From positions 14,418,922-14,482,921 of the forward strand of contig NC_092678.1 of assembly GCF_964355755.1 (NCBI RefSeq): a stretch of 64,000 bases of DNA, read 5' to 3'. The notes below the pieces were generated by a model. The model was not told the origin of the DNA. It saw only the letters and a list, made by a program, of their open reading frames with translations, and ran no database searches. This DNA is from Antedon mediterranea. Taxonomy: Eukaryota > Echinodermata > Crinoidea > Comatulida > Antedonidae. This document shows positions 18,279 to 51,200 of this stretch, piece by piece. The stretch's first letter is position 1; the number at the start of each line of letters is the position of its first letter. The translations under genes and the position numbers were made by a program.

Positions 18279-21200
18279 GTAAAACAAAATATAGGCTTTC
18301 CATATTACTAATAAGAAAGTATAGTCATTCAATTAGTTCCAAGAAGACAATACATTTATGTAAATTGTAAACTGTAATCATTATACCTATATTCAAATAC
18401 AATGAATACTGTTTAATATCCGGGATCAATAACATATGCTTCAGTGACGAATGCTGCAAATTAAATAGAAATTAACTACCTGACAAACTACTTAAATCTG
18501 TCAAAGTATTTAAAAAGTTGTATAAAAATAATTTGCTCTTAACTTATCAATGAGTGTTACAAATATGTTTACATTTACATTGTTTTTTTGCTTTTTTGGT
18601 TTTATCGCACTATCTTTGAGTTCATATGCCAACATGTTTAGCTAGTATTGTCTCGTCCTGTGCTTCAATTATGTTTGTATCATGTATTAATTATTTTGTT
18701 AAGGTGGCCAAATATTGTACGAGCTTTGCTCTTTTTTGGTCATCCTTCCATTTTTGCTATATATTCATGACACTTGGTTATATTGGAAAATAAAAACTGA
18801 AACTGAAACTGAAACATCAGTACTTACTGTTATTGTTTGTCCTACATTATGAGATCGGTGTACAGTTACTATAAAAGGTTGGACAAATAGTTAGACGGTC
18901 AGAACATTGTATACCTCCATGGTCAGAATGACAGTTTCGAAGTCAAGAGCCATATTTTGTATGTTTTGAAATAAAAAAACTTCAAAAGCATAATTGAGTT
19001 CATCTAAATCCAATCTAGTAAGACTTTTTCGAAATAATTATACAGATAATTTATAACGGTGACTAGACTCGACAATAACAACAATGTATTCACTTTTTTC
19101 TCTTATCATTAAAGTTATAACAATTATTTACTTCAGGATTGTACAATAATTGTTTATGCTTTTGTTTTTCATGATTTCTAAGATCAGCATGTTATTAAAC
19201 GTAAAGCATAAATGTAACTGATTTTAGTAATATCATAACAGTGTTGAACTTACAAAAATTGTCAATGTAACATGAATACAAAACATGTTTGCATTACAGC
19301 TGTAATCTATATTTATAAACTACATGGTTATGATTTCTTTCTAGTTTGGATACACTCCTCTACATAAGTATTTACTTTGTGCCAACCCTACAACAGAAAT
19401 AGTGGCTTGTCTCATACGGCATGGCGCACCAGAAACACCACGAACTACGGTAACATACAATTATAGTATGTCTATTATGTCATTATCGGTTCCAGCAAAC
19501 ATCTCTATTACATTTATGACGTCTCATTTATAATTATTATGAATTATGTAGAATTAGTTATTACAAATTCAAAAACATTTATTGAATAAAAAATTAATTT
19601 AATTAAAAACTATATTGTGTATACATGCCATGAACACATTTTGAAGTGCGTCTCGCCAATTATGACGTAATATAATCGATTGATTCACACATTTGTATTA
19701 CAAATAAATAGTAATTCTTCACTTTATCAGTCTAGTTTGTTTAAGTTGGTTTAAATAATATAATAATTATTCCTTGAAATAATTTTATTTGGGTCCTATT
19801 TTATATAAAGGCGTACATTTATTTTTTTATCCAATCAAGTACGATAGATAAGCACGAAATAAAAAAGTAAATACTACGTCGTTTTGCAAGCGTACCGGTT
19901 TTCAAGAACACTTTTGTTAGTTGCGTTGACGTTGATGCTATATATAACAAGCCAGATGTGTTGTAAATAAAGTACAAAGTGAATGTAGCTGATTTGTATT
20001 GTTTTGTACACTCAGAAGATTTTTGTCAAAACAATGTAGAATTTACAACCATTATTAATGTGGCATGACCGAAATATATGTTTGCCTTACAGCTGGAATT
20101 TATATTTAAAAATTACTACATGATTATGATTTCTTTCTAGACTGGAGACACTCCACTACATACGTATTTATTCAATGCCAACCCTACAACAGGAATAGTG
20201 GCTTTTCTCATACGAAATGGCGTAGCAGTAACATCAAAAAATAAGGTAATAATACAATAGTAGGTCTAATTATGCCAGTATTAATAAACATTATCGGTTT
20301 ATCTGTCTAGATTTTTTTAGTTTTTTACAGAAGATTTTGTCAAAGCAATGTAGAATTTACGACCACTATAATTGTGATTGTTTTACAGCTAGAATTGCTA
20401 TTTATAAATATGATTTCTTTCTAGTATGGAGACACTACACTACATAGGTATTTGCGATATTCTAACAGCAATAGTGACTTGTGTCACATAGTATGGCGCA
20501 TCAGTAACATCACAACATGTAGTAATGTACATACAATCATAGTGGTATTTATGTCATTATTATGAAAACAGTATCTGTTCCAGCAAACATCTCTATTTCA
20601 TTTATAATTTGTCATTTATAATTAATATTAATTATTTTGAATTATTTATTTCGAATTTTAGAAACAGTTATTGAATGAAACAATAAATGAAGACATGCCA
20701 TAACCGACAGGTGTTTTTAGAAACAATATTACATAACATAAAGTCAATTATGACGTCATATAAATCGATTGTCATTCACACATTGTATTACAATTATAGT
20801 AGCACTTCAATATATCCGTCTAGTTTTTTAAGATGGTTTAAATAATATAATAATTATCTTTGAAATAACTTTATTTGGGTCCTATTTTATATAAAGGCGT
20901 ACATTTTCCTTTTTTTTATTCAATCAAGTACGATAGATACATACGAAATAAAAAAAGTACTTACAATGACATTTTGCAAGCGTTCCGGTTTTCAAGTACA
21001 ATGTTGTTAGTTGCGTTGAAGTTGGTCAGTACGGCCATGAATGTAGCTGATTTTTATGTTTTGTACTTTCGGAAGATTTTGTCATAACAATGTAGAATTT
21101 ACAATCATTATCAATGTGGCATGACCGAAAAATATGATTGTATACAGCTGGAATTGATATTTATAAACTGCATGCTTACGATTTCTTTCTAGAATGGAGA

Positions 21201-24200
21201 CACTCCACTACATATGTATTTACGATGTGCCAACCCTACAACAGAAATAGTGGCTTATCTCATACAACACGGCGCATCAGTAACGTCACAAAATAAGGTA
21301 ACATACAACATTATAGTAGGTTTATTATGCCAGTATTAATAAAACATTATCGGTTCCAGCAAACTTCTCTATTCCATTTAAGACGTCTTATTTATATTTA
21401 ATATGAATTATTTAGAATTAGTTATTGTAATTTCAAACACAGTTATTGAATAAAACAATTCATTAAAAACTATTTTGTAGACGTATGCCATGAACGATAT
21501 GTTTTTGTACAATGTATTATTCTATAAGTGTAGACGATGGTTCTCGAAATAATAATGATTCGGGTAAAAAGGTTTTAGAAGGACGTTTTCCTTGTACGTT
21601 TTCTGTCGGTTACCGGTATTGAACATGCTTGACATTCGTTAAACTAAACCTACTCTGTTTCACAGTGTCTTAGATGATTAAAAACATTTTAATAAAGTAT
21701 AGTGTTTATTGTTTGGTAGGGCCCTTAAAATGAGAGGGGGCGAGGTGGAGTTCAATTGAGGGAGGTGCTTATTCGAATGATATGTTTAATTTTTTAGTCT
21801 TAATAAAATAAAATGGTAACATTTATAATCACATGGAATCCTCTACTACAAATAGTATAACTGTGTAATTATAAATATAATACAATATTGTGTGTATTAT
21901 AAATGTGGATGAGAGTTTATTAGATAGTTGGGTAGGGGGGGGGGGTTATTATTCAAAGTGATGTTTTATTGGAGAGGCGTTTATTCAAATAAATACCATC
22001 CTAATAATTAATACATTATTTAACTTAAACAGCTTTTAAAACAATGCAATCATAGTGGTATTTATGTCATTATTATGAAAACAGTATCTGTTCCAGCAAA
22101 CATCTCTATTTCATTTATAATTTGTCATTTTAATTAATATTAATTATTTTGAATTATTTATTGCGGATTTTAGAAGCAGTTATTGAATGAAACAAAAATG
22201 AGACATGTCATAACTGAAATGTGTAGAAACAATATTACGTTACTTAATGTCAATTATGACATAATTATAATCGATTTTCATACACACTGTATTACAAATA
22301 TAGTAGCACTTCGATATATCTGTCTAGTTTTTTAAGTTGCTTTAAATAATATAGTAATGAACTCTTGAAATAATTTTATTTGGGTCCTATTTTATAGAAA
22401 GGCGTAACTTTTCTTTTTTGATTCAATCAAGTAAGTATTCCGCCAAGTATTGCAAACGTACCGCATTCCAAGGACACTGTTATTGACGTTTGTCAGTACG
22501 GTATGCTATATGTAACAAGCCAGATGTTTTGTAGATAAAGTACAGAATGAATGTAGCTGATTTGTATTGTTATTTACATTCGGAAGATAATAATGTAGAA
22601 TTTACAACCATTACTAATACGGCATGACCGAAAAATATGATTGCATTACAGCTGGAATTTATATTTATAAACTACATGATTATGTTTTCTTTCTAGTATC
22701 GGGACACTCCACTACATAGATATATATTAAATGCCAACCCTACAATAGAAATAGTGGCTTGTCTCATACACCATGGCGCAGCAGTAACGTCACAAAATGA
22801 GGTAATGCACATACAATTATAATATGTTTCTTGTGCCAGTTTTAATAAAATCTTATCGGTTCCAGCAAACATATTTATTCCATTTATAATTAATATAAAT
22901 TATTTAGGATTATTTATAGCAAATTCAAAAACAGTTATTAAATAAAATGATTAATTAATTAAAAACTATAATTTTTAGACATGCCATGAACGATATATGT
23001 TTGTAGAAACAATTATTTCATAGTATACTAAGTGCGTCTCTCAAATGACATCATATAATATAAAAATAAAACTATAATTTAATTCGTCATTTTTACGAAT
23101 TATAGGTGTTCATTTTTATAATTTTATTGATAATAATATTTTTTAAACATGCACGTATGTTAACATACAATTGGAAAATGTTGATGTATGCCATCCTATT
23201 ATACGCTTATAGTGCTGTAATATAAAAAAAAAAAAAATACTTACTCCTACGTTTTGCAAGTCTACCGGTTTTCAAGTAGACTGATTGTTAGTTGCGTTGA
23301 CGTTGGTCAGTACGGCATGTTATATGTAACAAGCCAGATGTATTGTAAATAAAGAACGAATGAATTTAGCTGATTTTAATTGTTTTTACACAAAAGAATT
23401 TACATTATTAACGTGAAATTGAGATATAATTATAAACATGACTATGATATCTTTCTAGAATAGAGACACTCCACTACAATTGTATTTACGATGTGCCAAC
23501 CTTAAAACAGAAATAGTGACGTGTCTCATACAGTATGGCACATCAGTGACATCAAAAAATAAGGTAGTGCACATACAATTATACTAGGTATATTATTTCT
23601 ATATCATTTATGACGTCTCATTTATAATCTACTATAATTAATGCCCGTCCATATTTTTGTATAATTATTGTAATATTGTTGTATTATGTTGGAGACCCCT
23701 TTGGAAAAAAGCTTCTGCTTTCCATGCTTATTTTATTGTCTAGTCTTGTATTTTTATATTTAATGTTTCTCTTTTTATTTCATTTACATTATACTGTTTT
23801 ATATATTTGTACTGTATTTGGAAAGCAATAAATATTACTTACTTACTTACTTACTTCAATGGGTATGAGCCCCGCTATTTTTCAGCAAGGAAATCATTCA
23901 ATATACAATGTATACCATGACCGGAAAACTTCCTTATTTGGGGAAAATCGTTGGACCTAAATTCGTTTTATTAACTAATCAATAACTAATTATCTAACGC
24001 AACTTAATTAGTAAACAGGGTTACATCAGGTGGTTAAAATCAGTACCGAACGTATAAACCAAATTTACCATCGAGTTAAAATTCTAGAAGTAACGCGCGA
24101 TTTTCCGAATTGTGCCCTTAATGTAAATGTGTATATTACACCTATAACGTACGTATGAACTGCGCCAAAAACCTACCTTATCCACTTTATTTTGTAACAT

Positions 24201-27200
24201 ATTACAATTGATTGAATTATTTAGAATTACTTGCTGCAATAATTATTTAAAGTAATTATACAAGATCCTACATTTCTTGTGAGATTTGTATATTGTGCAA
24301 ATTAATTATTGTTCAACCATGTTTTATGTGGACCTGTCATTATAAAATAGTTATTTACGCCCGTATTCTTAAACCGGACTTTAGTCGTAGACTTTAAAAA
24401 TGGTGTCATTTTAATTCATAAACCGAACTTCAACTAAATCGTAACTAAATCAGGCCAACTTCGACTAAATCGAGACGGTTTTTGATTTTTTTTTTGTCCT
24501 GGAAGGGGCAGGCTAAATGGTCGACTAAATGGTTTTTAAACGATGTTTATGAAAAACGTAACAGTCATTGAGTTGTTGGCCAGATATTGAAGAATGAAAT
24601 ATCTATTTTGATATTAGCTTAATTAAATATACATTGGTATAAGTTTTAATAATGAAAATCATCTTTATTTACAACTGTATACAATTTACATTATTTTCTT
24701 TGCGCAAGTCCGACTTGAACTACGTCACGCCATAGCGACAATGGGAGATGTGGAAATTCACCACGCGATGGAATGTTTAGGGTGGGTGGGCCTAGCGCCT
24801 TCTTGTCACGCTATGAAGTGCGTAGTTCGCGATCATACTTTGTGGGAGGCCTAGAAAATATGAAAGTTACTGTACGCCATGGTTCCTAAATATATTTTGA
24901 AGATTTTGTTTGTTGTTAATCAAAAGTACTTCACTGTTAAATTAATACTGATCTTGAATTTTAAGTTATAGCTCGAACTACGATTTTTTCAGTCGAACTT
25001 TGAACTACGACTAAAGTCCGGTTTATGAATATTATTATACGGGCGTTAGAATCATGACTGAAAGTAAGAGAATGCACAGACAATTGATATACTTTGGTCT
25101 ACGTTCACAACATATGCACCAGCAAAACCTTTTATTTCAATTTCTTTGTGTATTATTATCATTACCTAACTATTATTATTTATTAATTTCTGCAATACAT
25201 ATGTATAAACTCCATGATTCTAATTTCTTTATAGGACGGAAACACCCCACTGCATGAATACATGCGTTCAAATGGACCTAATTTAGAAGCAATAGACTAT
25301 TTCATGAAGCAAGGTGCATCAGTAAGAGCACTAAATAAGGTAATATATGGCAAGAACAATAGTTATTCTAGGACAAAAATCTGAAAAGATGCTTAGAAAT
25401 CAAGTTAGGGGCAGTGGAATGTTAGAGGCTGTCAACATAGCCTTCTGATCACTCTAAGCTCTGTTGACACTTAATATTTTGTCTCGTCTTGAAATGGCGG
25501 CCATTTTTCAAAATGGCTTTCATTTTTATATACAATGTGCATAAAATCGGATCTAAATAAGGTAGATGCACGATCTTGGTGTCTAAACACATGTACTTCA
25601 GACACGGAATCCATTAGGCCTTGTTGACACTTCTTTTTGGCTTTATATTGAAATGGCGGCCATTTTTCAAAATGGCGACCAATTATATAAAAATGTGCTT
25701 AAAATCTAAATATGGTAGATCTACCATATTTAGATTTTAGGCACATTTTTTTTTCGTGAATATATTCACGATCTTGGTGTCGATACACATGTACTGTAAT
25801 AGGTTTTTTTTAAACTACTCGTATCAAAAAACCTTAAATCAAATATTTTCCTCTTGTACAAAAATGGAGTTTTTTGGACAAGTTGTTTTCAAACAGTTTC
25901 AGTTTACTTGTTACTTTAAGACTGCTCGCCGGCTTTTTGAAAATTCACTATCTTTTAAGACTAGCAGGTCTAAAAACAATACTAAAAATTGGTCCAAAAT
26001 TGGGACCGTGGTCCGGAATGCCCCAAAATTTAATGGAGTGGTACTTGACCACAAATCTATCTAACCCTAATTTTGGTAAAGACCTTGCAATAGCTTTTTG
26101 AGTAATCCTGCAAACAAACAGACAAACAAACAAATGAAAGCACTCAGAAACTGATTACTTGGCAAATATATATCAATTCAATTCAATTCAATTCAAAATT
26201 CTTTAATCATCCCACACGGGGCAATTCAACTAAAAAGGTCTGGATTAAAATGATCTTACAAAATATACAAAATATCACAATACACAGAACAACAACAACA
26301 AAAAAAGTCAAGTCAATGTTCAAGAATTTAAGAGTCGAATAGCCACTGGCAAAAACGAATTCCTTTTCCGGTTTGTTCTACATGCCGGGCATCGAAAGCG
26401 ACGCCCATGAGGCATGAGCTCGAAATCACTGAACAAGGCATGGTTAATATTTTTTAGAATAGCTCTACTTTTTCTACTGATAGGGAGCATGTTGAATGAT
26501 ACAATTTTTGGTTTTAGGTATTATCTTTACATGGTTCAAATCATGGGGTTTATAATTTATTAGGTACGCGATAGACTACATATATCTCCTTAGCGGAGGT
26601 AAATAATATTAGTTTATGTAATAGGAGAGCCTAAAGTCAAGATGAAACATCTGTGAAGTTACATGCAAATGGATTCAACAAAAGCTGAGGCTTTAAAATC
26701 CTAGTCATGGCTCTATACAAACTAAACCTTTACCAATTTTGTGAAACAAATTCCAGATTGACGATTTCATGAACAGATAAATTAGGCAACCATTTTGAAA
26801 AATGTTAGCTACTGTGCATTTAACTTAAAAAATTAATTAATCAAACTATTTAAAGTTATTTATTATATATTTAATGGATTTCTTGCCTGAAAAAAACATT
26901 TTGTTTAGACACCAAGATCATTTATCTAGCCTAATTAGTTACACTTTTAAGCACTTTTTAGAAAAATTATGCAGCAAACCCTTTCACTGCGGAAAATATA
27001 TTTAAGAAAAATATATGATATTTTAAGAAATTGCAAAATACTAATTGAGATAATTGGGTAATTTTTTTTTGGTGTGAGATGGGCAAATGGTTAGTCTAAG
27101 GTTAGGAATTTGCATATTGATGACGTCATGTGACGTCAATACAAGTATTTTGGATTTCGTTTTTTTTTATTGAATTAATGATAAAAACTATATTTTCTTT

Positions 27201-30200: not shown

Positions 30201-33200
30201 AAATACTCTTTGTTGTGATGTCCTTATATCTATTCTTAATGACATTTTCTGTTATATTATAATAACAATTTTCCTCGTATTTGATTATAGTTTTCCATTG
30301 TATTGGTATCGCTTTTAATAAGCACATGTATTCAGTTAACCAGTTTGCTTTGTACTTTAATTTTACCAACAATTCTTTTGAAGTTATGAATCTATTTTCG
30401 TTTATAATATCCTTCACTAAAATAATGCCACATTCAATCCAACGTTTTGATTGGTTTTTAAGTTGTATTAACTTATTACCTTATCTACCTTATTTAGATC
30501 TAATTTTATGCAACATTTTATATAAAAATGGCGGCCATTTTGAAAAATGGCCGCCATTTCAAGACGAGGCAAAATATTAAGTGTCAACAGGGCTTATAGT
30601 GATCAGAAGGGATTAATAAGGATATCTGGCTATGTTGACAGCCTCTAACATTCCACTCCCTCTAACTCAATTTTTTTCGGATTTGTTGCCTAGACTAAGT
30701 AACCTATCTCACGAAGCAAGCCACTTTTATCAGTAAAATTGCAAAATAAGAGATAATTGATATAATTCGGTCTACGTTCACAGCATATGACCAGCAAAAC
30801 ATTTTATTTCAATTTATTTGTGTATTTGTTATCATTACCTAATTTTAATTATTTGCTGCAATACACTGTATGTATACACTTCATGATTTACAATTTCTTT
30901 ATAGGACGGAAACACCCCACTGCATGAATACATGCGTTCAAATGAACCTACCTTAGAAGTAATAGACTATTTCATGAAGCAATGTGCATCCGTAACAGTA
31001 CTAAATAAGGTAATATATGGCTAGCTAGATATAATGTGTATGATTACACCTAACGTATGTCTGCGCCGCAAACATATCTTATCCACTTTATTTTATATAA
31101 ATTACATAATAGTAAAATAACGCTTAAAAAAGAACGACGTTTCGACTCCATCATGGGGTCATTATCAAGTCCAATCAAGACATTCTAAAAAGCAAATAAT
31201 TACATAACACACGTCAAGGGTCAAAGTTTAAATAACAAACTGCCTATTGTCTGACATCCTGTTAAATGAAAAGCTTGGCTTTAGAGTCACATTGTTTATT
31301 CAGACTAGGTTTTAATTGTCTGATGTAATTCATAAATAAGACAGTCACGTTTGTGTTTGCATTTCCTAAGTATAGGCTACTAAAACATGAATTAATTCTA
31401 CTTGTATTAGCAATCGCATTAAGATCCTTTAAATGCTGAAATATTAAACATCTATTATGTTCAACATTTGTGCTATATGTCAACGACATGGAATCGGCCG
31501 TTGATTGTGAGTTGTTGCTATATACAGATGATTGCCTCTTCTCTAACACAATGTCATTATGACTATGGGTGCTGTGTATGGTACTCATGTGCAAATAAAT
31601 ATATTAAAAATAGGCTACAGACGTCTCAAAACAAAACTATTAGGTGCATTTCGAACCTAGGACCACGGTCTCATATAGGTATACATGAGTTTGTCAACTT
31701 AAATTTGTTGCCAGTTGACCTAAAGTGCTCCAACTTACCTGGATACAAATACCCTGACGAGACAACGTCACAATCACAATGCAAGATTTGCTAGAGACAG
31801 CATTTCGATCCAAATTCTAGTCATAGGAACTTCACTTCCTTATTTTGTTCAAAGCTCCTCTTCATTAAAATCATTTAAACAGAGATCTAAAGGTTATTTT
31901 TGTGAAATTCTTAGATTAAGAGACATTTAATTTGCTATATGTTTGTGTATTATGTTTAAGTAATTGTGGTTTCCTTGTTTATTTTGTTATATTTTTTTAG
32001 GACCACAATGGAAATACGTTTGCCGTCTCGGTACTTTTTTGTGTTTTTATCCTATGATTTTATGTCAGAATAAAGAAATAAATAAATAAAATAAAACAAT
32101 GCGTTGGTAGAGGTGTCGGCATGTATATCCAACATAACTTACAAAGTAACATTCAAATGTATACACAACACATTGCAATTGCTGACTTATTATAGTTTGG
32201 TTCCTTTTTCCTTTTTAATGTTATCGGTAACTTTTCTACCTGTGAATACAGGGACATACAATGTTTTTTGTTAATCTTTTAACATAGTTGTTTGTCATAG
32301 GTGTCGCTTGAACGAGTTCACATTTTTTCTGGTCTTTGAATGGCAGGATGATTCGGACTGTTTTTTTTCAGTTTTATTATGTGTTTCACTTAGTTCAATG
32401 TTGTTATTGCTCTCTGTTGCTTCTGTGGTGTTTGTTATTAGTGTATCTGGATATTTCAGACCCTTACAATCTTCCTTAAATTATTAATTATATACATTCT
32501 TCATTAAATAGATGGTGGGTCGACGATAACACAATTACAAATCTCCAAATCTTTGATTATAAGCATTCCTAAAAAGTGATTGAATTGTTCACATCATGTT
32601 CTATTGTAAACGCTATCGCAGGATGGAACCAAAAATTCAACTAGATTGGGCATAAATACTAAAATGTCATCAAAATACCGCTTGTAGTATTTGTGCTTGT
32701 TTATTTACTTATTTTCAATCTTTCTACATAGGAAAAAAACAACCATATAAGTATAACAGGGGAGTAGCGGAAAAGCAAAAGTATAAAACTGTCATCTTGT
32801 GATGTGCTTGACCAGCCCCTGTCAACTTGAACGATACAATAAAACCAACATTAACAAATTTTGAAAAATACATAGAAAAATATGGTATAATAAAATGTTA
32901 ACAAAAGTGTTATAAAAATGCAATTGCTATCTGAACAATCTGATTGTGTAAAAGTTAAAAATTCTGATTGTATAAAAGTTAAAAATTCTTATTGTATAAA
33001 AGTTAAAAATTATGAATGTATAAAAGTTAAAAATTCTGATTGTATAAAAGTTAAATTCTGATTAAAGTTAAAAATTCGTAGAGATTCAATGCGTTCCTCG
33101 ATGTGGAACATAAATACATTTGCCATAAGGGATCCAATTGCAACTCCGTACAAGTTACCATTAAATTATAATAGCTGATCTTGCGTTGATATACCGAAGA

Positions 33201-36200: not shown

Positions 36201-39200
36201 TTTAACAGGATGTTAGTCAATATGCATTGTGTTATTTAAACTTTGAACCTTGGCTTGTGTTTTACCCTTTCACACCAAAAGCAAAACAACTCCGGAAACA
36301 TTCCGATGTTGACGCCCCGGTGTTTTGGTGTGAAATGTAAAATCAAGCAACCCCGGAGTTTAAAACTGCGGGGTTGAAAAGCTGAAACATTCCCCGGCGA
36401 GCGAACTTCGGGGACACCCCGGTGTTTTGGTGTGAAAGGTACCAACAGCAAATTATGTATCTTTGCCTGATTTTTTTAAAACTTAAACTGTAGTTGAAGA
36501 ATAAGATTATTAAAAACAAATATTTAGTGATCTTTTGAAATTTGAGTTTCTTTTTATTGAAAAATATTAATTTTTAAAATGACTTCCTATTCCAAACAAT
36601 TGGTGACCTTGGAGAGGTTGAACGCATTTTTTGGCTGGCTAGCAACCATACAGCGCCACCTACCGTCCACGCAGCGCCACCTACCGTTGTGACGTTAGCA
36701 CCGCAGAACTTTATGTAAACAAACAAAATAGAGGGTGACATTTAAAATTTTATTTTATAAACCCCGGTGTTGCTAGGTTGATGTGAAAGGGGTATCTCCG
36801 GAGTCTTTTGCTGTTTTGAATGGTCATAAACCCGGAGTACCTCCGGAGATCACTCCGGAGTTTTGGTGTGAAAGGGGTATTATATAATTAGTTGCTTTTT
36901 AGAATTTCCTCATTGGAATTGATAATGACACCATGATAGAGTAGAAACGTCGCTCTTTTTAAGCCTTATTTTTCTATTACATATTGCAATTGATTTAGTT
37001 ATTTAGAATTACTTGCCGCAATAATTAGTTAGTAGTAATTAAACAATATAAACAAGACAGGTACATACTGTCTTGTAATCTACCTCTACTCTACATTTAG
37101 TTAGATACCATCTTGTTAAAGATATAGCCTCTCTTTAGCGACAACCACCAATACCCCTTTATTTAATTTAGTGACCACTTCTTTTAAAGAACAACTACCC
37201 CTTGTAAGGATCCATCTCTTTTAAAAGACCACCACTCGTAAGAAAGGTGGTTCCTATGATGTAGGCCTATGAGTCACATAAGAGTTTAAAGGACTTTGGA
37301 AACCATAATCAATTCAAACATACACTTAAAAACATATTCTGCATTGCTATTATGATTTAATTAAGATCTGCTTGTTAATTGATTTTTAATAATAATTTAT
37401 TTATATGACAACAACAACAAATCATGTTATCAGTAATTGTATCTAACATTGTCATTTATAAGAATATTTATATTTGATGTTTATGATTTCTTCACAGAAT
37501 AGAAACAAACCGATAAATATTTATCTGGAGCGTGATGACGTTAAATTAGAGATATTGTTTTGTCTGATAACCAATGGTGTATCCCCCACATTAACAAAAG
37601 AGGTAATCTTAAGTTTTATTCTATAAAAATTTAAATTGAACGTCATCTGAAAATAGTACACGTTTGCTTAATATTATTATTTGTTTTGCTTCGTTATTGT
37701 TCATCATATTATTCTCTTCAAATGCAAGAAGGTAATGTAACATGATGGAACTGCTCTTGGTATAAATAAAACATTTTAGCTACTTTCGGATAATTTGATT
37801 TAAAAATATTTATTTATTAAAAATATATCATTTTTTATTTTTTTTAGGAAGGAAGCAATGCTCTACATGTACATCTAAGTGGTAGATATGTTAAACCTAC
37901 GTTAGAAATAGTGACTTATCTCATTAAGCTTGGTGTTACTCCAACATTACAAAATAAGGTAATGTACATAAGAGTGGGCCTATATTCCCGGTGGCATTAT
38001 GTTTTTTCCTATCCAATTAAGGCAGAAATCATGAAGAATCCATTACCTTAATTAATTGGTATTATAAAGAATTGCATGGATAGCTGATCTACTTCCTAAA
38101 TAACTAAACGTAACCCTCTAAATATTCTCTCTCAACTATTACTCTACAAAAAAAAAACATGTTCTTGAAAGACCTCGAATCAAAGGCTCCAGTGTAGTAG
38201 GTTAAAGTCACTAGACCAAACATTTCAGTTGGCAAACGCAGTTCACACAGATTATTTAATCTATATGCATGCTTATATAGCTCAATCTATAATGTGCCGT
38301 ATTATGTCATAATTATTCTAATGAATTATTCATGATTTCTGCCATACATTGTATATGATAATAATTTATTTATATGACGAAAACACCCCACTGCATGAAT
38401 ACATGCGTTCAAATGAACATACATAAGTAGTAAACTTTCTTACGAAGCAATGTTCATCAGTAACAACACTAAATAAGGTAATATTGGGCTAGAGAACATT
38501 TCAAAAAAGGGAAAGCACAGACAATTGATATAATTTGGTTACGTTCACAACATATGCATCAGCAAAACCTTTTATATCAATTTCTTTGTGTATTACTTAT
38601 CATTACCTAACTATAATTATTTTTTGCAATACACTGTATGTATACACTTCATCTATATATAAATGATGGTTAATTCTGACATAGGCGAACAAAATGGAAA
38701 AACTTCGGTATAAATCTCCGCCTTGGATACCTACCTTATCTTTCTTAGATGTACCGCGAAACCTAGATTTGATAACATTAGTTTTCAGTACTACGCTATT
38801 GTTCCATTTTTGTCTTTAACAACGACAAAATTTAGCGTTACCTATCGAAATTTGTGGATATCACAGGGTTATTTTCACACTCTCGCGCTGTTGTTCAACT
38901 GGCTACCGAGTCCGTCACTTCTGGCAAAATGGCCGTTGGTGGCGTCATTCAATATTAAATACAAATATTTTATATTTAGTGGTTCAACGAATCGTGAACT
39001 AGGCCTATAATTTATTTGTTTTATATTCAACTATCAATTACAAAGGCCTTTACTTTACGTGAAATACAATTTGTTTTAGTAATTTAACTATTATTTATGC
39101 TATTTATTAATCATTTTATCAAATTTAGGTGCGATTCAATGTTACTATAGGAGGCTAATTGAACTAATTAATTATGCTACTATTAATCATTTTATCAAAT

Positions 39201-42200
39201 TTAGATGCAATTCAATGTTACTATAGGAGGCCTGGTAGGCCTACCAGGGAACAAGATGTTGTTGTCATGATGTATTGTGATCGTTCACGATCGCTCACTG
39301 TCACCTACTTTGATAACTATGCTTTTGGTCTCTTGGTAGGGTCACGTTAAAGACTGTTTCAGTGATTGATGACCCATATTAACGGTTTCCTCTTGTGTGT
39401 AACGTTCACATAATATATATAATAATATAATATGTATATTATACGTATACTGTTCTTTAAAATTATATTATTTGTTGTAATAACAATTGTTGTAAAGTGT
39501 TTACATCATTACAGGAGAATCAATGTACATTTTTTTGTAAACTGTAAATAAATCTATTGAGTCCCTTTTCCCTTTTACGTTTCTATAACCACCGATTGCT
39601 GTCAAGTTCAATTACCAGAGGCGTTGGTCATGTTTCGAGAACCATTTGGGTAAACCCACTACAGGGTGCGCGAGCAAACCTTCTAGTGATTATAATTTAT
39701 TTATAGAACGGAAATACCCCGCTGCATGAATACATGCGTTCAAATGAACCTACCTTAGAAGTAGTAGACTATCTCACGAAGCAAGGTGCATCAGTAAAAG
39801 CACTAAATAAGGTAATTTATGGCTAGAGATAATATATATGATTACACCCATAACGTACGTATGATTCTCACCGCAAACACATTCTCTTATCCACTTTATT
39901 TTAGGCCTATATCATATTACAATTGATTGAATTATTTAGAATTACTTCTACAATAATGAATTAGTAGTAATAAAAAAAAGATCATATTTTTTTATTCTCT
40001 TTAATTTCTTTAAAGGACGGAAGCACCCCGCTGCATGAATACATGCGTTCAAATGAACCTACCTTAGAAGTAATAGACTATATCACGAAGCAAGGTGCAT
40101 CAGTAACAGCACTAAATAAGGTAATATTGGGCTAGATATCATTTTTAAAATAATGGAATGCACAGACAATCTATATTTAAATATACGTAAGGGCAAACTT
40201 TGGTAAATGGCGCATTACTTCTAGAATGTACTCGGTGATATATAAAGTTGTTTCATCTTTCGGTACTGATTTTAAACACCTGTTGGAATCATGTTTACTA
40301 ATTAAATTGAGATAGATAATTACTTATTGACAATTAAAACGAATTTAGGTTCAACGATTTGCCCCAACTATGGTTATTTTCGGGTCGTGGTATACACTGT
40401 TTAATGAATGTCCATCTTGAAAAATAGCCGCTCACAATAATACGAGGATGCTTCGCATTTACCTATCTCCTCCGACGATTTTATTGTTTTTAAATAGCTG
40501 AATAACTGTTGATCAGCTCGAGTACAGCGTCATAAATTTGAAGACTGAAAAAAACTATTTTGATAGATTTAAAATACGTTTAATATACAAATGTATTGAT
40601 TTGCGATGAATGGAACATTCCAAACTATTTGGTTAAACACAACAAGTAGGTAAATTTATGGGCCCTTGGAGAATAAACTTAACACCTTAAGATATAGTAT
40701 TGCAATACTATACAACATTGTAAATACGTATTAACCGCTTTTGGTCCCCATTTGAATCGCAAAGTTCTTACTGTGAGTGTTGGTACTGTTATGTATATAT
40801 AAACATATACAATAAACTTTATTACCGTGAGTGTGGGTAGGCCCTACTGTTATATTATAAACACATAATATACAAATAAACTTTATTACTGAGAGGGCTT
40901 CTCAACGTTTGTGTTAATTAATAATTACAAACAATATAAACGTCGTAGTGGTTTATCGTTACAAGTACTTTACTATTTCAATCGAATATGACAGGAACAG
41001 TTTTTACATATATACATAATTTGTTACTGTATTTAGTGGTATATTATTATTTATAGGCCTATACAAAATTACAACAATATTTTCGTTAGAAAGTCCCTCA
41101 ACCCTAATGTTACATACAAAACACAAATTGAGTTTGTCTAAATGAGCCCAAATCAAACATTTGTGACATATTTCTCTTTCGGAAGTAATCCCCAGGGTGC
41201 TAATTTTGGTTGACTAAATAAATCAACGTGTCTATTTATTCGTTTCTGTAAACGACAATGTATTATATTCTTGTATTTAAAATCCACATTTTTTTAAACT
41301 CTGAAATTACTGTTTATTCGATAACCATCTGTGGGCACAACCTAGATGTTACGTCATCATCTAGTTGATATAATTCGGTCTACGTTCACAAAATATTCAC
41401 CAGCAAAACCTTTTAATTCAATGTATTTGTGTATTATTTATCACTATCTAACTATAATTATTTGCTGCAATACACTGTTTGTATAAACGTCATGATTATA
41501 TTTTTTTAAAGGACGGAAACACCCTGTTGCATGAATACATGCGTTCAATTGAATCTACCTTAGAAGTAGTTGACTATCTCGTGAAGCAAGGTGCATCCGT
41601 AACAGCACTAAATAAGGTAATAATGGGCTAGAAATCATTTTAAAATAAGGGAATGCACAAACAATTGATATACTTTGATCTACATTCAAAACATATGCAC
41701 CAGCAAAACCTTTTGTTTTAATTGCTTTGTGTATTATTATCATTACCTAACTATATTTATTTGCTGCAATTATACTGCTTGTATAAACTTCATGATTATA
41801 ATTTCATTAAAGGATGGTAACACACCGCTGCATGAATACATGCGTTCAAATGAACCTACCTTAGAAGTATTAGACTATTTCATGAATCAAGGTGCATCCG
41901 TAACAGCACTAAATAAGGTAATAATGTGCTAGGGATAATTTATATGATTATACCTATAACATGCGTATGATCTGCGCCGCAAACATATCGTATCCACTTT
42001 AAATATTTAGTAGCAATTAAACAAGATACTACAGTTATTGTGAAATTTGTATATTTAGCACACATTCATTTAGACTAGACAAAAAGTAGTGAGCCCTCTA
42101 GCGGTCATTTGTGATTTCTGAGATTCATCGAAGCGCGACAACATCACCCGGAAATGATGTGAATTTAAAATTTTAATAGGGGTTAAACTCTTTTAACCAA

Positions 42201-45200
42201 TTGAAAGCCTTAAATTATAGTTCCTTATGAATAATTCATGAGAATAATTAAAGCAAGGGTTGAAGAAGCATGTGACTTGGTTTTTGGAACAGGATAGCAG
42301 TTATGATCGTGTCAGGTAATCATTGAATTTGCTCTTCTTTTTGTTAGATTTTATACGGTTTTTATCAATAATAATATTGTACATTTTTACGAGACCATAA
42401 AAAAATTCCTCAATTTTTGAGTAAACAAGTGACTAAATAAAAAGTTACTATGTAATGTAAATATTCGTTTGACAAAAAATGGGCATGTTGATATTTTCAG
42501 GTATTTTTTAAATGGCGATTGAAATAGGTAAACAAATCACATGTATAACGGTGGTTTGTGCGAAGCTTGGCCTAGCCTTGATGGTCCAACTCGTACTGCG
42601 TGTTAATCAATGCGTATAAGATACACACGTAGTCGTTTAGGCCAATTTTTTTACATGTTTATTTATTAATATTAGGCCCCATTCTCATTTATTTTAATTA
42701 ATGTACTGAATGTACCACACTTTACAACTCTATATAAATTAGATTTTGTACTTGTATTAAATTCAAACGTTTTATGGGATTTAAAACATTAAGCTAGGCC
42801 TTGTAGTAGGCCTAGGACCACATGCTAGGTTTTTCAGCCTAATTTATCATGCAGTATACCTCTAGCCCATCTTTCAAATACATATTTAAATTAACATACT
42901 TTTTATATTTCTATATTTTTTATAGGATCTGACTCCAGAAAACATTTGCATCACTTGAAAGCGGCTATTTATGGACAGCATGTTGACATTCAAAAAAATT
43001 TGACCAGCTCTTATTAATTAAATGTCTTTTAAATTAAAGGTTTTCATTATAATGAAATGTACGGTGACAGAAATTTAAATGATTCTCATAATTGAGGTTT
43101 CTCATAGATTTAATATTGAAGGTAAATAAATAAAGCTGTTTGTTATTCTTGCCTTTAGAAATAAACATGTTGTTAGTACTATATTATTAGGCCTAGGCCA
43201 TTATACAAATTAAAACTAAAAAATACAGTAATCATATTTAAGGCCTACACACAGTACCTTACTTATTTGATTTTTTTCAAATATTTAATTGATGAAATAA
43301 ATGAGTTTGACTTTTCAATTAGTTGCCATTTTATTAGTTTCTGTGTGTTTTTATTTATATTCTTAAAACAATTGTATACAACAACTTTAAAGTATTGCGC
43401 AGAAGTGATCAAATTATAGTAGGCCTATGTGTATGTTATTGTCGCTTAAAATTATGCAGTTAAAGTATTTGATTTTAGGGTGACAGAAACGGTTAGGCAA
43501 GAAAAGAAATAAATTTGGGAATTTTGTTATGCGGTAAAAACAATTAAACATAATTTACCCCTAATGCATGTAAATGTAGAAAACATTTGCTTATGTTAGC
43601 GCGACCGAAACTCGCTACTGGGAATAGAGCCTGCAAAAGCGACGCGTACATCGGGCACCGGTGGAGCGCGATCGATAGTAAATATACCCGATTTCAAATG
43701 ATCATAAAATTCTTTTAAAAAATATCAACATTTTGATTTTTTGAGGATTAAAAGTAAAGATATTGAAATTTAACATAATATTTACAAATATGTATTTAAA
43801 AATTCGGAAACAATTTTAGCGTGATATTAAAACAAACTTTTTAGAGTTCCGCGATTTCCTACGCAGGATTTGTTTGTTTTCATTGTTAATGGGCGAATGT
43901 TACCTAAACTAGAATCGTTATAAATCTTTTAAATTTGTATTATAAGTAATTTCTTTAGTATTCTTAGTAACATCGAATGTCTCTAATTAACTAGCAGTTA
44001 TTTATACTAACTATTGTTCAATAATAAGCGTTGTATGAAGTGAAAATCTATAGTAATAATGTTCTTAGTCAGTTCGTCTCGCTCGCGTGAAGTCTTCGGG
44101 TTTCTCAATACAATTCTCAGCGGTAAAGATAGGCTCGCGCTAATGTTTAAATCAAAAGCGCTCTCAAAACACTTTTTGTCCAAAATTCGCAATATGACGT
44201 GAGTGTGAGCAATGAAATTATTAATTTTACTATGTTTTATGTGGACATATCATTATAACAGAGATGAATTTAGAATCATGACTGAAGCAATGTTCACAAT
44301 AACCTGTATGTATAAATTACACGATTATGATTTCCTTTTTTCAGTAAAATTGCAAAATAAGGGAATGCATATGCCAGTTATATTATTTTGTCTACTTTCA
44401 CATCATATTCTAAAGAACAAAAAAACCCTTTTATTTCAAATTGTTTGTGTATTTTTTATCATTACCTAACTATAATTATTTGCTGCAATACAATGTATGT
44501 ATAAACTTCGTGATGATAATTTCTCTATAGGACGGAAATACCCCGATGCATGAATACATGCGTTCAAATGAACCTACCTTAGGAATAGTGAACTACCTCA
44601 CGAAACAAGGTGCATCCGTAACATCACTAAATAAGGTAATATAGGGCTACAGATAATTTATATGAATACACCTATAACGTACGTATGATCTGCGCCCCAA
44701 ACATTTTACCTTATCCACTTTATTTTATATCATATTAATTGTTTGAGTTATTTATAATTACTTGCTGCAATAATTATTTAGTAGAAATTAAACAAGATCC
44801 TACAGTTCTTGTGAGATTGGTATATTGAGCAATGATTTTAGTAATTTAAATATGTTTTATGTGGACATGTTATAATAAAATAGTTGAATTTAGAATCATG
44901 ATTGAAAGCAATGTTCACATTAACCTGTATGTATAAACTACAGGATTATGATTTCTTTTTTTCAGTAAAATAGCAAAATAAGGGAATGCACAGACAATTG
45001 ATATAATTCGGTCTACGTTCACAAAATATGCACTAGCAAAATCTTTTATTTCAATTTCTTTTTCTTATACTTATTCTGTTATTGCCAAATATAAAATACA
45101 TGAAGAACATGAAATACACAAAAACAAAAGAACCAACTGAGTGAGCTGGCAGGGGACACAACAGCGAACCTAATCACTGTGACTTAAAGCCTGTGTTCCC

Positions 45201-48200
45201 CACTCACCCAGTTTTACAAGCAATGAAAATGCCATCATAATATATAATATACCAAAATTCCAAAGTTAAGTTTAAATCATATAAATAAAAAAAAAATATA
45301 TGAATGATATAATATGAAAGTACATTAAATTATATACATATGCCTAATCATTATCGGATAACAAATTTATTTTAAGTTTAGCAAGGAATGTAGGGAAATA
45401 ATCCAATAGCAGGGAATCTTTCACTTCATCATGAATGTCTTCCCACAGTCGCGGGAAGACATGGATAACTGAGCGATGCAAACAGTTAGTCCGAGCATAC
45501 AACTACTTGAAACTTAAGGTTTCTTGACGTCGAGTATTGACGCACACATTTTCGCGAATACTTTTACAATCAATATAACCTATTAGTGTTTCACATACAA
45601 ATGATGTTAAAAGATAGCTTCTTCGGCTCGTTAGCCGGGGCCAATTGAATTGTTTTAATCTAACATCATACTCCATATCTCCTCTTCTCTGTTTCAATGC
45701 TAGCCGTGTGACTCTACGTTGAACAGATTCGATCTTATCAATCAATTTTACTGTCTAGGGAAGCCATGTGGGAATCGCATATTCGAGTATGGGAATGATA
45801 AGAACTCGGTATAATGCAAATACAGCTGCTGACGAGTTGCCCCCATTAATACTCGCAATATAACCAATCATCCAATTTGCCCTTGCAGTAACATTTTGTA
45901 GTATTTATCATGACCTAACTATACTTATTTGCTGCAATAACCTGTATGTATAAACTTCATGATTATAATTTCTTTATAGGACGGAAACACCCCGCTGCAT
46001 GAATACATGCGTTCAAGTGAACCTACCTTAGAAGTAGTAGTCTATCTCACGAAACAAGGTGCATCAGTAACAGCACTGAATAAGGTAATATATGGCTACA
46101 GTTAATTTATTTGAACTAGATGGTACGCTCGCTTCGCTCGCGTACCTTCTAGGTTGTGTCCACAGATGGTTCTCGAATACACAGTATTTTCAGCGTAAAA
46201 AATGTACGCACCACAGGACTATAGTACATTGTCGTTTACAGAAACAAATAAATAGACACCATGATTGATGTAAAATTAGCACCCTGGGAATTAGGCCTTG
46301 TTTTAAAAATGAGTTTTTATTTGAACTCATTTAAACAAACCCACTTTGTATTTTGTATATAACAATAGAGTTGAGGGATGGGGAAGAGAATGGGAAGAAC
46401 AATTTTAAATATATTCGCTATCCACTGATTAACGAAATATTGTTTTAAAGGTTTCATAGGCCTATCAAAAATATACCACTAAACACAGTAAAGCATTTAC
46501 GATTTATAATACTTTTTTCAAACTGTCCCTGTTATAGTCGACTGAAATAGTAAAGTACATGTAACGATACACCAGTACGACGTTTATATTTTTTATAATT
46601 TTTAATTAATACAAACGTTGAGAAGCAACTGTCAGTAATCTACCCACAGTCACAGTAATAAATGTTCTTTGTATATTTTGTTTATATATCTAACAGTAAC
46701 CACATTCACAGTAAGACAATTTCGATTCAAATGGTGACCAAAAATGGTTAATACGTATTTACAATATTATCAAAGTACTGCAATACTATATATAAGTTTA
46801 TTCTCCAAGGGCCATACATTTACCTACTTGTGTTAAACCAAGGGCTCATAAATGTACATACAAACTGTGGGAGAGATTTGAATGTTCCATTCATCGCAAA
46901 TCAATACATTTGTATAAACGTATATTAAATCTATTAAAATAGTATTTTTTTAAAGAAAATCGACATTATGATACTGTACTCGAGCTGTTGAACCGGTTTT
47001 CAGCTATTAAAAACAATTATCGTAGGAGGAGATATGAAAATGCGCAGTATCCTCGTATTATTGTGTGCAGGTATTTTTCATGAGGACATCCATAAGACAG
47101 TGTATACCACGATCGGAAAATTCGTTGAACCTAAATTCGTTTTAATTGTCAATAACTAATTGTCTAACTAAATTTAATTAGTAAACAAGGTTACATCAGG
47201 TGGTTAAAATCAGTACCAAAATTCTAACCAACTTTATATACCATCGAGTAAACATTCTAGAAATAACGCGTGCTTTACCGAATTTTGCCCTTACGTAATT
47301 TATATATAAACTAGATGTACGCTCGCTTCGCTCGCGTACCATCTAGGTCGTGCCCACAGATGGTTCTCGAATACACAGTAATGTCAGTGTAAAAAAACTG
47401 GCGATTTCAAATGTACGTACCACACGACTATAAATACATTGTCGTTTTCAGAAACGAATAAATATACACGATGATTAATGTAGTCAAGTAAAATTAGCAC
47501 TCTGTGAATTAGGCCTACTTCCGAAGCAGAAAATTGTCTTAAAAATGAGTCCACATTTTTTTCTTTGAAATATTTAAACAAACCCAATTTGTGTTTTGTA
47601 TATAACATTAGAGTTGAGAGATGGTGAAGAGGATGAGAAAAACAATTTTGTAATATTTTCTTTATCCACTCAGTAACGAAATATTGTTTTAAATGTCTTA
47701 TAGGCCTATCAATAATATAACACTACAGAATAACATTTACGATTTAAAACTTTCCTAAAACTGTCCCTGTTATAGTCAATTGAAATAGTAAAGTACATGT
47801 AACGATACACCACTACGACGTTTATATTTTGTATAATTATTAATTAATACAAACGTCAAAAAGCAACTGTAAGTAATACAGTTTTTATTTGTATATGTAT
47901 ATTTATACGTGTTTATATATCCAGCAGTAGAGCCTACCCACAGTCACAATAATAAATGTTCTTTGTATATTTTGTTTATATATCTAATAGTAACCATATT
48001 CACAGTAAGAACATTTTGATTCAAATGGCGACCAAAAATGGTTAATACGTATTAACAATATTATTATCAAAGTATTGCAATACTATATATCAGTTGTAAG
48101 TTTATTCTCAAAGGGCTCATAAATTTACCTACTTGTGTTAAACCAAGGGCTCGTGCATGCATTTACCTACAAACTGGAAGTCTGAGAGATTGGAATGTTC

Positions 48201-51200
48201 CATTCATCGCAAATCAATACATCTGTATAAACGTATATCAAATCTATAAAAATAATATTTTTTTAAGAAAATCGGCCTGTCTTCAACATTATGATGCAGT
48301 ACTCGAGCTGTTCAACCGATTTTCAGCCATTAAAAACAATTATCGTAGGAGGAGATAGGAAAATGCGATGCATCCTCGTATTATTGTATGTGGGTATTTT
48401 TCAAGATGGACATCCATTAGACAGTGTATACCACGATCGGAAAACACAAATATTTGTGGCCAATCGTTGAACCTAAATCCGTTTTAATATTCAATAACTA
48501 ATTATCGAACTAAATTTAATTAGTAAACAGGGTTACATCAGGTGGTTAAAATCAATATCGAAAGTACGAACCAGCTTTATATACCATCGAGTAAACATTC
48601 TAGAAATAACGCGCGATTTAAAGAATTTTTCCCTTACGTAAATTTATATATAGATACCTCTTTTAACGTACGCATGATCTGCACCGCAAATATATGTTTT
48701 CCACTTTATTTTGTATCATATAATTGATTGTGTTATTTAGGCTTACTTTCTGCAATAATTATTTAGTAGTAATTAAACAAGATCCTACAGTTATTGTGAT
48801 TGGTATAATAATTATGAAAGTATTAAGTTGACTATGTTTTATGTGGACATGCCATTATAAAAGGGTGAATTTAGAATCATGACAGGAATGCAATGAATGA
48901 ATGAAAGCAATGTTCACATTAACCTGTATGTATAAACTACACGATTATGATTTCTTTTATCAGTAAAATTTCAAAATAAGGGAATGCACAGACAATTCAT
49001 ATACGTTCACAACATATATCCAACACCAAAACCTTTTATTTCAATTTCTTTATGTATTATTTATGATACCTAACAATAATTATTTTCTGCAATAACACGT
49101 ATGTGTAAACTCTATGATTATACTTTCTTTATAGGACGGAAAAACATCACTGCATAAATAATTAGACATTTGAATGATAGTTGTTTAGCGATGTGTTTTC
49201 TCAAAAATGTGTAATCAAAATTCTATCAAATTGACTACGTCGTCCATGCACCATACATATACACTATACTAATACGAAAATTAAATTTCATTAAATGTTA
49301 CTTCAAACTTAATTGCAAATACAGTAACAAACAAAACCATTTTTTAACATTAATTATAAATACTATAACTTTAATGCGTGAATTAGTTACCTTTGAAGAG
49401 ACGTAGTTTATTATTGTCTGAGTTATTACCAGATTGAGGGCGCAGTTATTTTGTATGGAAGGCAGGCTGCACTCAATTTTAAGTTTATCCCGAGATATTT
49501 AGCTTTTAAAACGTATTTACAGATTGTTTACTATGTTTAAATTTAATTTATTAATTAAATAGTATATAGTGTAAGGTAATGATAGTTAATTATTATCGCA
49601 CTTATCATATCTTTATTACTTTTTACTAAGGCAAAAAAGGCGTAAAATGAGTTTCGTCACGTGATTGATGTAAATACGTCACCAACGGAGATACAAATTG
49701 GAGGGATGTTCATTCTATATTAAATTTACGGGGAAATTATGTTTATTTATCTCTTTTTTTACCCCATTACAAAATGTAATGTTTTGGTGTGATGTCACTT
49801 ACAACAAATGGCATCCAAATAATCAATAACTGGAAGAACACGACGCGGAATTGTCAACATTATTGTATCTTCCATAACACTCAACATCTCCTTAACACAA
49901 TACTAATAGATTCTAATAATATTCATGGTATGTGGTACTGATATTTTTTTACATTTAATAATAAATTTCGTGATAATAATGTTTTTCTCTATAGGACGGA
50001 AACACACCGCTGCATGAATACATGTGTTCAAATAAACCTACCTTAGAAGCAGTAAACTATCTCAGGAAGCAAGGTGCATCAATAACAGCACTAAATAAGG
50101 TAATATAGGTCTATAAATAATTTATATCATTACACCTAACGTACGTATGATCTTCGCCGCAAACATATCTTATCCACTTTATTTCATACCATATTATATT
50201 TGATTGAGTTATTTAGAATTAGTTGCTGCAATAATGAATTAGTAGAAATTAAACAAGATCCTACAGTTATAGTGAGATTAGTGTATTGAGAAATGAAATT
50301 ATTAATTTTTTAAATAAATTTTATGTGGACATGTCATTATAAATTGGTTGAATTTAGAATCATGACAGAAAGCAATGTTAGCAAATTAGTTTGGTCACGT
50401 GATTGATGTAAATGCGTCACCCGCTGAACTACAAATTAGAAGAATGGTCATTGTATATTAAATTTACGGCGAAATTATGTTTATTTATCTGTTTTTTACC
50501 CCATATTTAAAAATGTAATGTTTTGGTGTGATGTAACTTACAACATTCAAAAGCAAATACATGTTTTTTGGCTATACTAAAAATAGCTTCACACTTGACT
50601 ACATCATCTTCGGAATCACTCCAGAATCATCAAATGGAATCAAAAGCATATAACACATCTGACGTGTATGATTAATGAAGTGGGCTGAAATTGTTTAGAA
50701 CGCGGATGACCTAGATATCTAATATACTTTTATGTTTATAGGAAGGAAAAACAGCAGTATCCGTTTTAGAAGAAAATACGAAGATAGAAAAAACAAAACA
50801 AATCATGATTTTAGAGCATTTTGACAGTAAGTAAAAAATATTATATTAAAATTGAAGTTGATGTAACTTTAAATAGAAAAGGTTCTCCATATTAGCAATA
50901 CACATTTACATAAAACCATGAATTCGAAAACCGAAATGATACATGTATGTTATGCGTATTTTTTAAAATTTATAATTAGAACTGCTAGTTCCTCCAGAAA
51001 TATTTGCCATGGGTAAAGAGGCTATTAAGATATATAAAGATGAATTGAAAGATGGTAAAATTGCAGTTGTAAATTCAAGATGTATGTTTCTTGGGAAGGA
51101 AGGTGCTGGTAAGACAAGCTGCGTAAAGTCCATGCTTAGAGAGAGGTAACAAAATACAATTGATACAAATATGTGTTAACATAAGCTAATGGTATTAATC

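Follow-up and report, generated by a model that had tools for sequence, protein, structure and literature searches.

What would an animal gene do with sixteen exons that each encode one ankyrin repeat, are these exons still being gained and lost, and does the gene that carries them still work? These questions are raised by a window of 64,000 nt (the whole stretch of DNA analysed) from the crinoid Antedon mediterranea, in which such an array precedes a Roc-COR GTPase. The answer that we consider reasonably probable is that an ANK-Roc-COR (ROCO) protein, from a tandemly expanded family, faces its ligands with this array, type A exons being the variable part and type B exons the constant part.

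Anatomy of the array and its gene

The array holds 16 intact, stop-free single-ankyrin exons, supported by motif search, profile search and gene model; 15 of them measure 105 nt and one (37848-37958) measures 111 nt, and all are in phase 0-0, as an earlier note on this DNA had claimed, with AG upstream and GT downstream. The motif search recovered 15/16, and the divergent sixteenth (37498-37602) came from the profile search, whose DNA profile was built from the other 15; E-values of the array exons within the window range from 2.2e-11 (hit at 37484) to 1.4e-38 (45966). Since the neighbouring exons are also in phase 0 (18191-18278 at its end, 50742 at its start), gain or skipping of any array exon leaves the frame unchanged, and this second claim of the note is likewise borne out. 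Type B accounts for 9/16 of the exons. A phage search with one exon gave no match. Extended in both directions, the array yields a gene model of 30 exons that spans 18063-59422, has AG/GT sites and phases that agree, and comprises 1,241 codons and one stop. Its start, the array and the remnants are as follows, array exons resting on motif, profile and gene model unless otherwise indicated:

18063-18070, +, exon 1: start codon, 8 nt, ends in phase 2 (ATG and GTGAGT donor kept in sisters A1, A4, A8; gene model)
18191-18278, +, exon 2: N-terminal ankyrin cap, ends in phase 0 (kept in A1, A4, A8; gene model)
19345-19449, +, array exon, type A
20141-20245, +, array exon, type A
20425-20526, +, frameshifted type A exon, stop-free in the shifted frame, also in sister loci (sister comparison)
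21193-21297, +, array exon, type A
22697-22801, +, array exon, type A
23459-23563, +, array exon, type A
25235-25339, +, array exon, type B
30692-30750, +, array-exon remnant (profile E 4e-4)
30905-31009, +, array exon, type B
37498-37602, +, array exon, type C, divergent (profile, gene model)
37848-37958, +, array exon, type D, 111 nt
38376-38477, +, dead type B exon with an internal TAA and without its acceptor AG (profile)
39707-39811, +, array exon, type B
40016-40120, +, array exon, type B
41512-41616, +, array exon, type B
41813-41917, +, array exon, type B
44341-44369, +, exon 3' remnant (profile E 2.5 alone; duplicated unit 44285-44408 / 44906-45029)
44531-44635, +, array exon, type B
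44962-44990, +, exon 3' remnant (profile E 4.5 alone; same duplicated unit)
45980-46084, +, array exon, type B
48959-48988, +, possible exon 3' remnant (profile E 1.4 alone)
49122-49163, +, type B exon truncated by a stop 8 codons after its start at 49135 (profile)
49995-50099, +, array exon, type B

In addition, the array contains three exons with damage and, as short remnants, four more; the note had described these as broken exons and scars. Damage is plain in exon 38376 and in exon 49135, whose profile match stops at 49163. The break in exon 20425 is not recent: 3 further copies of this frameshifted exon occur at sister loci, stop-free between AG and GT over 99-102 nt, and the intron downstream is as conserved as the exon (96-97/100 nt), so that 20425 is an older dead exon copied with its unit. 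A functional exon in the shifted frame was considered and rejected, because duplication or gene conversion suffices to explain an equally conserved downstream intron. As to the scars, 30692-30750 is significant on the profile, whereas 44341, 44962 and 48959 are short 3' ends and weak when taken alone; what lends them credence is the position of at least the 44 kb pair, in register inside longer duplicated units.

Downstream of the array, sister comparison and gene model together give these exons (for 51402-51499, the gene model and the P1 and P2 matches, which stop at the same point):

50742-50826, +, first exon after the array, starts in phase 0, probable C-terminal ankyrin cap
50980-51145, +, Roc P-loop exon (GKEGAGKTS)
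51402-51499, +, Roc exon
51749-51817, +, Roc exon
54046-54207, +, Roc exon with WDYAGQ and THR
54931-55001, +, Roc exon SYCVVFSALDKLDELAKRRDPAL
55128-55319, +, Roc exon with THID
56363-56608, +, Roc-COR exon
57863-58057, +, COR-A exon, in-frame TAG at 57923-57925
58209-58361, +, COR exon
58448-58747, +, COR-side exon
59218-59422, +, last COR-side exon detected in the window

In Pfam, a spliced prediction with 11/16 array exons, an X at the stop and some ten intron residues after 51499 scores above the cut-off for every domain: ankyrin at 1.3e-41 (PF00023) and 1.2e-40 (PF12796, both above the curated cut-off), COR-A at 9.9e-16 (58.4 bits, cut-off 35.3) and Roc at 3e-7 (31.1 bits, cut-off 27), which places the gene among the ROCO genes. 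A GTPase does therefore stand behind the array, as the note had proposed, but its frame is interrupted by the TAG in COR-A. Two other readings of the exon limits were rejected: an end of the 51402 exon at 51525, because the phases require 51499, and a missing Roc exon, because the sister alignment shows that the 54046 exon extends to 54207 and joins 54931. Between the window copy and three sisters, dN/dS of the GTPase is 0.36-0.47, in counts free of the intron residues.

Sister genes and exon turnover

The ANK-Roc-COR family comprises 48 strong P-loop loci at E <1e-13, of which 11 (one with TAA inside) lie on the chromosome of the window (C9), 25 on C3, 7 on C11, 4 on C4 and 1 on C8. Over the 11 gene intervals of C9, best-candidate hits, from which partial, broken and weak ones were removed by hand, give 0-5 exons of class A, 1-7 of class D and 0-14 of class B. 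Exons from C9, C4, C3, C11, C8 and C1 were chosen from hit lists by similarity to the queries; among these, 39/40 further A-like exons and 17/18 from C3, C11, C8 and C1 are open and in phase 0, and the design seen in 16/16 window exons, one repeat per exon in a single phase and at near-constant length, recurs in them at 102-111 nt.

Are exons still being gained and lost, as the earlier note held? In sister genes they are: P1 contains a 3-exon tandem unit of 1,835 nt with 95.2% identity over 3,187 nt, internal duplications are found in P2 (90.5-92.4%) and P6 (90.2 and 92.9%), and A4 and A8, a pair with 98.5-99% identity, differ in the fourth type A exon, which is open in the former and carries a stop in the latter. 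The pair G1/G2 retains the same exon number, 6 and 6. Fresh gain or loss is not visible in the window, where unit pairs of at least 250 nt reach at most 86.9% identity in the repeat-unit comparison, with 88-94% over shorter stretches.

The sister genes finish in a death-effector-like exon. That of P6 scores E 0.003 and 18.2 bits against Pfam DED, below the cut-off of 35.9, and finds a single PDB chain up to E 10, at E 0.11.

Selection on the exon classes

The contact positions used here, where ankyrin repeats usually meet a binding partner and which are the ones diversified in DARPin libraries, are in a register consistent with the alignment of the array protein to a solved DARPin; the set was fixed before counting, after the exon sequences had been viewed. 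On C9, tree-based counts over 29 distinct type A exons give a ratio of 1.78 overall, 3.05 at the contact set (bootstrap 1.84-5.57; position shuffle p 0.008) and 2.70 at contact set plus loop (p 0.020). With silent changes counted inside the contact set only, the ratio is 2.45 there against 1.48 elsewhere. For the 19 distinct exons of C4, contact set plus loop gives 3.21 (1.19-17.6; p 0.005); with silent change taken from within the set alone, the local ratio drops to 1.30. Without the loop, the C4 contact set falls short of significance (shuffle p 0.078). In neutral simulations the contact values of type A on C9 and of C4 were reached in 0/400 runs each. The most variable positions include some outside the contact set, above all 8 and 29, and others such as 4, 6, 19 and 23 stay fixed in type A exons on C9.

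Type B exons resemble one another, evolve under purifying selection and show no contact-position excess (37 distinct exons; 0.53 overall, 0.36 at the contact set, p 0.92). Types C and D have ratios near 1. The recognition surface attributed by the note to the whole array is thus supported, as far as sequence goes, for type A exons only, and not for the 9/16 that are type B.

The type A counts on C9 are without L022 (broken), L024, L030, L035 (108 nt) and the A4 exon 14889906, as well as frameshifted exons and identical repeats (32 reduced to 29). For C4, removal of one identical sequence left 19 of 20; omission of loop codons brought eight exons of 108 or 111 nt down to 35 codons. The dN/dS, pairwise and later counts omit, from P1, its C exon as well as 14267897 and 14273986; from P6, one C exon; and from G1 and G2, the B exons of 108 nt.

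Function, rival readings and known systems

Each exon encodes one 35-residue ankyrin repeat, cut at the identical place in the solenoid. With the flanking exons in the phase of the array, duplication or deletion of exon-intron units would alter the length of the solenoid and leave the remainder unharmed. Type A exons, near the N-terminus, appear to have diversified along the ankyrin binding groove and, for that reason, most likely touch variable ligands; type B exons, mostly closer to the GTPase and kept alike, most likely give spacing or bind something constant. Ligand binding may switch the Roc GTPase, which might in turn drive a cell-death or immune response through the death-effector-like end.

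Is a recognition role needed at all? Symmetric exons drift readily, and a scaffold or spring varying in length only, by unequal crossing-over and neutrally, would fit the uniform, purified type B exons with their lack of contact excess; in the pairwise count of 14 type A exons, silent divergence at the contact set is also high (0.355, against 0.332 for replacement and 0.120 for silent changes elsewhere, on few silent sites). Such drift is nevertheless unlikely, as the neutral runs never reached the excess of amino-acid change that type A exons on C9 have at the contact set, which persists under both tree-based silent counts beside fixed positions. Quite unlikely too is a splicing cassette, in which exon subsets would differ by cell or transcript and many solenoids would come from one gene: the common phase 0 of the array exons and both neighbours would allow it, and PMC11378527 describes brown-algal ROCO genes with such exons as alternatively spliced, but the sequence bears no sign of subset splicing, and constitutive splicing explains the anatomy equally well.

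A further reading concerns the window copy and not the family: the gene may have turned into a pseudogene only recently, leaving the array as a relic with exons that have yet to decay. We give this an even chance. The COR-A TAG, unique among the four copies compared, stands where 3/3 sisters have Tyr, and two in-frame stops interrupt the next downstream homologous C-terminal exon, which lies outside the window at C9:14487126, so that this copy may be dead and probably no longer makes the whole protein; the three dead array exons point the same way. However, AG/GT sites and an open frame are found in 16/16 array exons, in the exons on either side and in all Roc exons of the model; a shortened ANK-Roc protein may still be made, the TAG could stem from an assembly error or be confined to a single allele, and the damaged C-terminal exon is assigned to this gene by position.

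For the family, the reading of the array as a ligand-facing arm can be set beside known systems. In DAPK1, ankyrin repeats precede Roc-COR as in the window gene, but it has a kinase domain and is a single gene, and we know of no exon array in it. Ankyrin-1, ankyrin-2 and DARPins are solved solenoids whose alignment with the array protein (11/16 exons supplied) keeps the register; they lack its GTPase link and have 33-residue repeats. The closest known system is exon shuffling in the LRR-ROCO genes of brown algae, reportedly treated in earlier work by Zambounis in 2012. The parts consulted of a later study (Teng 2024, PMC11378527) describe exon shuffling in an expanded family with putative pseudogenes, positive selection at the binding face and splice variants; the likeness lies in the family expansion, the putative pseudogenes and a ROC-COR GTPase behind a one-repeat-per-exon array of fixed length and phase, and splice variants are known in the algae but not in the Antedon family. 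The array operates in the manner of that system without belonging to it, since its exons are 105-nt, phase-0 ankyrin exons and not 72-nt, phase-2 LRR exons. Going by the same parts, the death-effector-like C-terminal exon of the sisters and the two exon classes under apparently opposite selection belong to the Antedon family and not to the brown-algal one. The ROCO genes of Trichoplax, at least 17 putative ones with death-fold domains, are also an animal expansion, in which the passages found by term in PMC4104024 name CARD, death, TPR and LRR and hold no exon array; the word "ankyrin" is absent from its text. Brown-algal work aside, no ankyrin exon arrays are described in the titles or abstract openings returned by literature searches.

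Tentatively, and with the chances rather against it, an ankyrin counterpart of the brown-algal system may have arisen independently in an animal lineage: a modular and expanding repertoire of intracellular receptors built on a ROCO GTPase. One ankyrin-exon arm would be variable and under diversifying selection, the other constant, and the output would be death-effector-like; the splicing choice of exons, or copy number differing between individuals, might add further diversity. Diversifying and conserved exon classes within one array offer a direct test of which part of the solenoid meets ligand. If the family works in this manner, two distant lineages would have built receptor repertoires alike, with one symmetric exon per repeat in front of a ROCO GTPase.

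The array and the copy that carries it

The window, C9:14418922-14482921 (GC 32%), lies in a 354-Mb genome of 18 contigs whose gene types hint at an animal; a COX1 search gave no match. The array of its ankyrin-Roc-COR (ROCO) gene comprises 16 stop-free single-ankyrin exons flanked by AG/GT, all 105 nt long except for one of 111 nt. Between them lie four short remnants, three of which are weak when taken alone, and three exons that are damaged. The earlier note had described this anatomy correctly in nearly every detail. The exon symmetry it reported extends beyond the array: all 16 exons are phase 0-0, the capping half-repeat exon 18191-18278 ends in phase 0, as a 5' comparison with sister genes shows (three of these, A1, A4 and A8, keep the start exon 18063-18070), and the first exon after the array, 50742, begins in phase 0, Roc and COR exons then reaching 59422. 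The gene model counts 30 exons and 1,241 codons with AG/GT sites and phases consistent throughout, the join after 54207 being based on alignment to sisters and a donor that reads GTT, and in a spliced prediction including 11 of the 16 array exons Pfam recognized Ank, Roc and COR-A, each above cut-off. When the 12 exons 3' of the array were sought by tblastn in three further sisters, all matched in P6 and in P2 (the last one partially in P2), and one of the 12, exon 51749, had no match in P1 at the cut-off used. At 46103-48652, a unit of intron sequence, about 1.2-1.3 kb long, is duplicated in tandem without an array exon (79.5% identity overall).

The earlier note set this array before a GTPase and overlooked an interruption in this copy: the single stop of the model, codon 978, is an in-frame TAG in the COR-A exon, where P1, P2 and P6 all have Tyr. 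Right of the window end, C9:14487126-14487578 is homologous to the C-terminal exon of P6 (86% identity over 684 nt), which is open over 195 codons with a weak death-effector match, and carries two in-frame stops; thus the protein behind the intact array is probably cut short. The stretch 59001-60828 is 97.2-97.3% identical to P1, against about 62-90% (protein) for several earlier GTPase exons, a pattern suggestive of crossing-over or gene conversion at the 3' end.

Other elements in the window are:
1-285, + strand: end part of a death-effector-like C-terminal exon (whole exon C9:14418688-14419137)
6071-9502, both strands: non-LTR retrotransposon reverse transcriptase-like frames, by eye
61227-63807, - strand: Gypsy-type retrotransposon frames, by eye from listed frames

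The first shares 61% identity over 93 residues with its P1 counterpart. The COR exons of P2 lie about 42 kb before it, and P2 has another such exon nearer to them, at 14382939. Such exons have at least 150 matches genome-wide (best 150 of 390 candidates), more than there are ROCO P-loop loci, many at just about 30% identity. A copy located behind P6 shares 95.6% identity with the stretch 60826-64000.

A family differing in exon number

Among 91 listed matches, 48 loci carry a P-loop (Roc) exon at E < 1e-13 (25 on C3, 11 on C9, the contig of the window, seven on C11, four on C4 and one on C8), the other 43 being more distant or matching the short 50742-type exon. The plasticity of exon number claimed earlier holds at family level: the 11 C9 intervals between P-loop exons contain 0-5 exons of type A (nearer the N-terminus), 1-7 of type D (111 nt) and 0-14 of type B (mostly nearer the GTPase), as counted in the best 107 of 613, 150 of 517 and 150 of 583 candidates, with types assigned from search matches and intactness checked for fetched loci. 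Several genes may share an interval, because COR exons lacking a strong P-loop also occur (e.g. 13234213, 15292797).

Repeat units reach 95.2% identity over 3,187 nt in P1 (a tandem unit of 1,835 nt), 90.5-92.4% in P2, and 90.2 and 92.9% in P6; in the window, none of the unit pairs of at least 250 nt exceeds 86.9% among 18 listed matches, and shorter repeated stretches attain 88-94%. On C1, three ankyrin exons of equal score spaced by 1,089 and 1,088 nt (8624552-8626830) form a separate, probably recent tandem array.

Two sister pairs are recent duplicates. G1 and G2 (blocks 95.1-98.0% identical) have six exons each within the duplicated stretch, and seven replacement and no silent changes in five exons; A4 and A8 (main blocks 98.5-99.0%) have three intact type A exons each, with one replacement and no silent change; their fourth type A exon is open in A4 and interrupted by a stop in A8. 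Judged from these sequences, exon loss is visible at 1-2% divergence, and rapid turnover is not.

Selection on the exon classes

Pairwise-count replacement-to-silent ratios were 1.26 for type A (16 exons), 0.52 for B (41), 0.87 for the divergent type C (seven) and 0.99 for D (nine); over eight GTPase exons they were 0.47, 0.36 and 0.38 against P6, P2 and P1, respectively. The contact set (positions 1, 3, 11, 12, 26, 33 and 35, expected to touch a binding partner; a second set adds the two-residue loop 13-14) follows the diversified positions of DARPin libraries; its register agrees with alignment to a solved DARPin, and it was fixed ahead of the site counts, yet after the exon sequences had been viewed.

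Tree-based ratios, with the whole-exon silent rate or in-set silent changes as denominator
Exons (distinct; overall ratio)	Set	Whole-exon	In-set (elsewhere)
Type A, C9 (29; 1.78)	contact	3.05 (1.84-5.57; shuffle p 0.008)	2.45 (1.48)
Type A, C9	contact + loop	2.70 (1.58-4.71; p 0.020)	1.90 (1.58)
C4 (19; 1.46)	contact	2.60 (0.71-15.0; p 0.078, not significant)	4.04 (one silent change)
C4	contact + loop	3.21 (1.19-17.6; p 0.005)	1.30 (1.07)
Type B (37; 0.53)	contact	0.36 (p 0.92, no excess)	0.48 (0.55)

The type A tree holds 201.7 replacement and 36.3 silent changes. In a neutral simulation (400 runs, two transition biases, assumed base frequencies), the type A values and both C4 set values were attained in no run, the overall C4 value in nine, and the overall type B value was exceeded in 398. 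Type A replacement at contact sites exceeds flanking-intron divergence (0.16 upstream, 0.22 downstream). Among 14 type A exons compared pairwise, in-set silent divergence (0.355) is as high as replacement (0.332). In the tree-based counts, two of the three most variable type A positions, 8 and 29, fall outside the contact set. The in-set silent counts and these two positions weaken the case for selection somewhat; it thus appears to be carried by type A on C9, and C4 leans the same way. The recognition role proposed in the earlier note therefore gains support from type A on C9 (contact set 3.05) and none from type B (0.36, p 0.92).

Dozens of type A-like exons lie at C4:15.9-19.7 Mb, many death-effector-like exons near them, on a contig with only four strong P-loop exons; the loop varies from two to four residues (105, 108 and 111 nt) in 20 fetched exons, and these exons perhaps belong to another architecture.

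A proposed modular recognition arm

The nearest known system is the exon-shuffled LRR-ROCO family of brown algae (PMC11378527; PMC4104024), which works alike, although its exons are not of the same family as these ankyrin exons. Ankyrins joined with death-fold domains occur in other animal families, according to PMC8195603. No announced ankyrin counterpart of the algal system was found in a search of mostly non-subscription literature, chiefly by title and opening of the abstract. Beyond the anatomy, family and selection, which are observed, we infer the remainder: on the best reading, the array would be a modular arm for recognition, its outer class A variable and its class B constant, placed before a switch formed by Roc-COR and an output of death-effector-like type.
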